A stretch of 40,564 nt of DNA from Acidimicrobiia bacterium (lineage in GTDB: Bacteria > Actinomycetota > Acidimicrobiia > Acidimicrobiales > UBA8592). How positions within the stretch are numbered: the stretch's first letter is position 1; the number at the start of each line of letters is the position of its first letter. The translations under genes were made by a program, and so were the position numbers. The notes below the pieces were generated by a model that was not told where the DNA came from, ran no database searches, and saw nothing but the letters and a program-made list of their open reading frames with translations. Of this stretch, positions 40,079 through 40,564 are shown piece by piece. The DNA is taken from positions 1-40,564 of the forward strand of contig JAUIIS010000009.1 in assembly GCA_030431575.1 (NCBI GenBank). Reading direction: 5' to 3'.

Positions 40079-40564
40079 ATGCACCGGCTGGGGATACTGA
40101 GTATTTGCGCGCTGTTAGCCGCCACGCTCGTCGCGGTCCCCACCTACCCCGCCCAAGCTCAAGACGAACAACCCCCGGTAGAAGAGGTCGATATCGACCC
40201 CGAGCCAAGTCCCACGCCAGCGGTCACACCCGCAGCCGACTGGGTGCCGTTCACTGGCAGCTACGCGGTGGGCTGCACTCGAACCAGCACCAAGAACCCG
40301 GGATGCCCGGTGCACCACCCCACATGGGCCATCGACTGGGCTACCCCGGCGGGAACCAAGATCCGAGCCGCAGGTGCGGGCACAGTGGTTGGCCTGTATC
40401 GCGGTTGCTTACCCAACGGTGGCGACGGGGAATGCAACGGTGGCGCAGGCAACCTCGTTGACCGTGTTCGCTTTAATTATGTCGTCGATTTCCTCTACCT
40501 AGGAATCAAGAAACCTTTTGAAACTAATATTTTTAATATCGCTGATGTGGTGATCATGACTGGC
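40079..40564 (+). CDS. M23-type peptidase, 3' end replaced by foreign sequence
   Basis: The frame starts with a secretion signal (1-27, LLAATLVAVPTYPAQA) and a Pro/Glu-rich linker, then the beginning of an M23/LytM domain: CPVHHPTWAIDWATPAGTKI and AAGAGTVVGLYRG. M23 enzymes cut peptidoglycan peptides outside the cell. From about residue 124 the sequence no longer continues the M23 fold but reads as signal peptidase II, and base composition changes to AT-rich. The real gene is therefore visible only to about 40450; the rest is most likely a chimera. The frame is open at the window edge. Confidence 0.75.
   Translation, partial: MHRLGILSICALLAATLVAVPTYPAQAQDEQPPVEEVDIDPEPSPTPAVTPAADWVPFTGSYAVGCTRTSTKNPGCPVHHPTWAIDWATPAGTKIRAAGAGTVVGLYRGCLPNGGDGECNGGAGNLVDRVRFNYVVDFLYLGIKKPFETNIFNIADVVIMTG
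40448..40564 (+). CDS. lspA: Fragment of signal peptidase II (LspA), probably foreign
   Basis: The last 39 codons encode GNLVDRVRFNYVVDFLYLG and then FNIADVVIMTG. Both catalytic aspartates of LspA are visible, one in GNxxDR and one in FNxAD, with the correct spacing. Unlike the rest of the window, the codons are AT-rich (TTT, AAT, ATT). The fragment lacks the N-terminal half of LspA and runs off the edge. It joins the M23 frame without a stop, near a stretch both families can share (GG-A-GNLV). Confidence 0.75.

Follow-up and report, generated by a model that had tools for sequence, protein, structure and literature searches.

An apparent M23 peptidase-lspA fusion at a contig end is best explained as a metagenome artefact

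Does the last open frame of this contig encode a real fusion of an M23 peptidase with signal peptidase II (LspA), or was it created by joining the DNA of two organisms? The window, meaning the whole stretch of DNA analysed here, is the entire contig C425 (40,564 bases), which belongs to an 83% complete metagenome bin (518 contigs, 4,165,240 bases). Its final frame, at 40079-40564 on the forward strand, is still open where the contig stops. In this frame Pfam recognised the start of a Peptidase_M23 domain (residues 83-104, profile positions 4-25 of 96, E 0.021) and, further downstream, Peptidase_A8 (LspA; residues 121-162, E 1.3e-10). The latter passes the Pfam cut-off, and the former stays under it because the domain is truncated at the join; missing from the frame are the later half of the M23 domain and the initial two thirds of LspA. 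The first-pass annotation had described such a protein switch from M23 to LspA, together with a chimera made by assembly or amplification. Pfam and the M23 relatives bear out the switch, and we consider it almost certain (about 98%) that the contig end is an artefact in which the M23 gene was chimerically linked to lspA from a Bacteriovoracia bacterium presumably present in the same sample.

The upstream part (40079-40438, forward strand) is the 5' portion of a native M23 peptidase gene, comprising a signal peptide and the start of the M23 domain. Residues 37-127 are 41-44% identical to proteins from the bin's own family, with E-values down to 5.8e-21 and alignments reaching the residues GGAGN. 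Since these relatives have a complete domain (E 3.3e-14 in L033), the M23 identity of the upstream part is secure. From GGAGN these relatives read on into the M23 domain (GGAGNWISVDHG...HLHYDE; CNGGAGNWISVDHGDHWARYIHL...HLHYDE followed by FG-GAP repeats). The upstream part is thus similar to family M23 peptidases with FG-GAP repeats, but the window gene, unlike them, breaks off at GGAGN short of the domain's second half and has no HLHYDE-type motif. Of the order's genomes, 298 were searched and 13 contained a match, the window's own included; in none of the 12 others did M23 run into LspA; the longest alignment in the search (G161) was to an ordinary M23 protein. No independent genome among those searched therefore carries the same fusion.

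The bin itself encodes a paralogue on contig C55 (L137, 16589-17173; 44% identity), whose frame of 827 residues, with M23 and repeats, indicates the form of the complete gene. When the bin's genome was searched with 40139-40438 and with a relative's C-terminal half, the only hits were this paralogue (54%), M23 genes of weaker similarity and the contig itself. Likewise, the C-terminal half of the relative did not locate the rest of the native gene at the beginning of any other bin contig; the bin is 83% complete. We counted this missing continuation as a point against the artefact explanation.

The downstream part (40439-40564, forward strand) is an internal lspA fragment of 126 bases. It is 100% identical to the lspA interior at L003:3007-3132 (JAUIBX010000070.1, a Bacteriovoracia metagenome-assembled genome, MAG), and the first mismatch falls at 40438. 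When the last 49 residues were compared at the protein level with 84,980 species genomes, six Bacteriovoracia/Bacteriovoracales MAGs matched at 84-95% identity, the five besides L003 showing 84-90%; below these six matches identity fell to about 55%. None of the six lspA loci contained the fusion. In L003 the frame of the tail carries on to the end of lspA, and the gene neighbours match those in L004, L005 and L008, which identifies L003 as the home of the tail sequence. Searching for the tail gave a single position in the window's own genome and a single position in that of L003. By taxon, then, the tail leads to Bacteriovoracia and the upstream part to the bin's own family; both organisms were presumably present in one sample.

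Compared with signal peptidase II (LspA, PF01252) of Bacteriovoracales, the tail (Pfam E 9.2e-12) is an exact internal fragment in which both catalytic Asp motifs, GNxxDR and FNxAD, are kept (GNLVDR...FNIAD). In contrast to the full-length membrane protein, it spans only profile positions 92-132 of 142, with no start, N-terminal part or end. The bin's own full LspA (E 1.2e-31) is encoded on C283 and covers profile positions 2-138.

Base composition agrees with a foreign source. GC-content is 43% at the L003 lspA locus versus 62% here; in the window's last 106 bases it is 0.377, while no 100-base stretch of 1-40438 falls under 0.41. In a survey of 214 ends from 114 contigs of the bin, the GC drop at the window's end (-0.242, z about -5.2, SD about 0.05) was the largest. 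Letter for letter, the tail is the lspA of a low-GC organism from a different lineage, in line with the low-GC donor proposed at first pass.

The exact junction is 40439 or lies up to about 15 bases later, within a zone (40439-40453; GGT GGC GCA GGC AAC, encoding GGAGN) that suits both genes. The codons here are GGNGGNGCAGGAAAC for CNGGAGN of the M23 relatives and GGTGGCGCAGGCAAC for the L003 lspA; GGAGN, about 15 bases, is common to M23 and LspA by chance. The earlier idea of a join inside a short GGAGNLV-like shared stretch holds for GGAGN; the next codon in the M23 relatives is W (TGG), not L. The switch to AT-rich sequence had been put at about 40470, where the GC fall is indeed seen, but the junction itself is earlier. 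IMG/VR contained no match to the junction sequence.

The length of the tail points to its cause. Among the 214 ends, two pairs, C2/C65 and C5/C404, show end-to-end overlaps of exactly 127 bases, from which it follows that the assembly K was 127; 126 is therefore K-1 of a K=127 de Bruijn graph. Exactly 126 bases, with a mismatch at base 127, are shared at the ends C422/C484, C432/C36, C434/C36 and C442/C54, and the window's end, with 126 identical bases and a mismatch at 127, repeats this pattern. However, at C422, C432, C434 and C442 the paired contigs also agree upstream of the mismatch, being variants of one locus, whereas the window's upstream sequence is unrelated, which marks the window's end, unlike the other four, as a chimera. 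The size order of the bin contigs resembles a text sort of NODE names, suggesting SPAdes output.

These data suggest the following course of events. A chimeric connection would have joined the M23 gene of the 62% GC bacterium to the Bacteriovoracia lspA within about 15 bases fitting both. The graph path (K=127) would then pass through the junction, and the contig would halt at the last 127-mer holding the base before it, one base short of merging with the lspA path, so that a 126-base foreign tail remains. Tail identity, fusion-free M23 relatives and the K-1 tail length thus all support the chimera proposed at first pass. As in inter-genome chimeric contigs from short-read metagenomes, the two sides match different organisms and meet in a short shared join, the fusion is absent from relatives, and the length of the foreign end is set by the k-mer graph. 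Unlike in the usual cases, merely 126 bases are foreign here, and completeness and contamination estimates would therefore miss the chimera. Metagenome misassembly is well known (e.g., PMC10174551).

We infer that the link arose either as a chimeric library molecule or as a misjoin at an early k, and not from DNA that truly existed in a cell. Probably the library did contain such a molecule, produced by template switching at GGAGN during PCR or amplification, and the assembler followed the chimeric fragments faithfully. The usual smallest k is 21 (SPAdes defaults), and as far as the relatives show, the two genes have no more than about 15-20 bases in common; moreover, at the contig's other end (33 bases) and in the L003 lspA only 3-4 bases are shared at the joins. 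Against this, a shared stretch of at least 21 bases is possible, the native M23 continuation not having been recovered from the bin. In that case the assembler itself could have wrongly connected two genuine paths at an early k, through a shared k-mer of 21 bases or more, and no molecule with the junction would have existed. We regard such a misjoin as possible, at well under even odds: GGTGGCGCAGGCAACCTCGT, 20 bases, could be native to both genes (GGAGNLV), but at least one matching base beyond the motif would be required, and the W after GGAGN in the relatives counts against it.

That the two genes truly fused, or that an lspA piece entered the M23 gene by lateral transfer, can practically be dismissed: the reading frame is unbroken over the junction, which speaks for it, but the tail is 100% identical at the DNA level to another lineage with zero divergence, ends at K-1, is joined to M23 in no relative, and would cost M23 its catalytic half and LspA its N-terminal part. 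It would likewise be extraordinary if a Bacteriovoracia lspA fragment had very recently been inserted into the M23 gene and lay at a contig end by chance.

The apparent M23-lspA fusion is thus an ordinary metagenome artefact with nothing biologically new, and its value is one of housekeeping rather than biological importance. The last 126 bases of the contig should be trimmed, and the predicted M23-LspA fusion protein and the second lspA of the bin kept out of databases. Exact K-1 matches at contig ends offer a cheap, read-free sign for such tails.

Several minor observations were made at other ends and loci. The second-largest GC drop among the 214 ends (-0.193) occurs at the end of contig C45 (L127:4014-4273), where the reverse strand, read by eye, seems to encode a PIF1-like helicase (NPCGLHVVTGNPGTGKSF); this end, whose sequence was not found in the L003 genome, is possibly another foreign tail. 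The 127-base C2/C65 overlap (L052:1-127, L103:3842-3968) has 46% GC, is AT-rich relative to its own contigs and may be a foreign or mobile stretch.

At L003:2880-2925, the lspA of JAUIBX010000070.1 lacks about 55 codons found in relatives, with a frame change. The gap is joined at a few shared bases (TTTG), upstream of the stretch in common with the window, and reflects a second chimera or else a genuine deletion; we counted it, too, against the artefact explanation. The start of the window also looks joined: positions 1-33 and 31-94 are each 100% identical to contig C496 (3409-3441 and 3748-3811), where they lie 306 bases apart, and the join involves about 3 shared bases (ACC).
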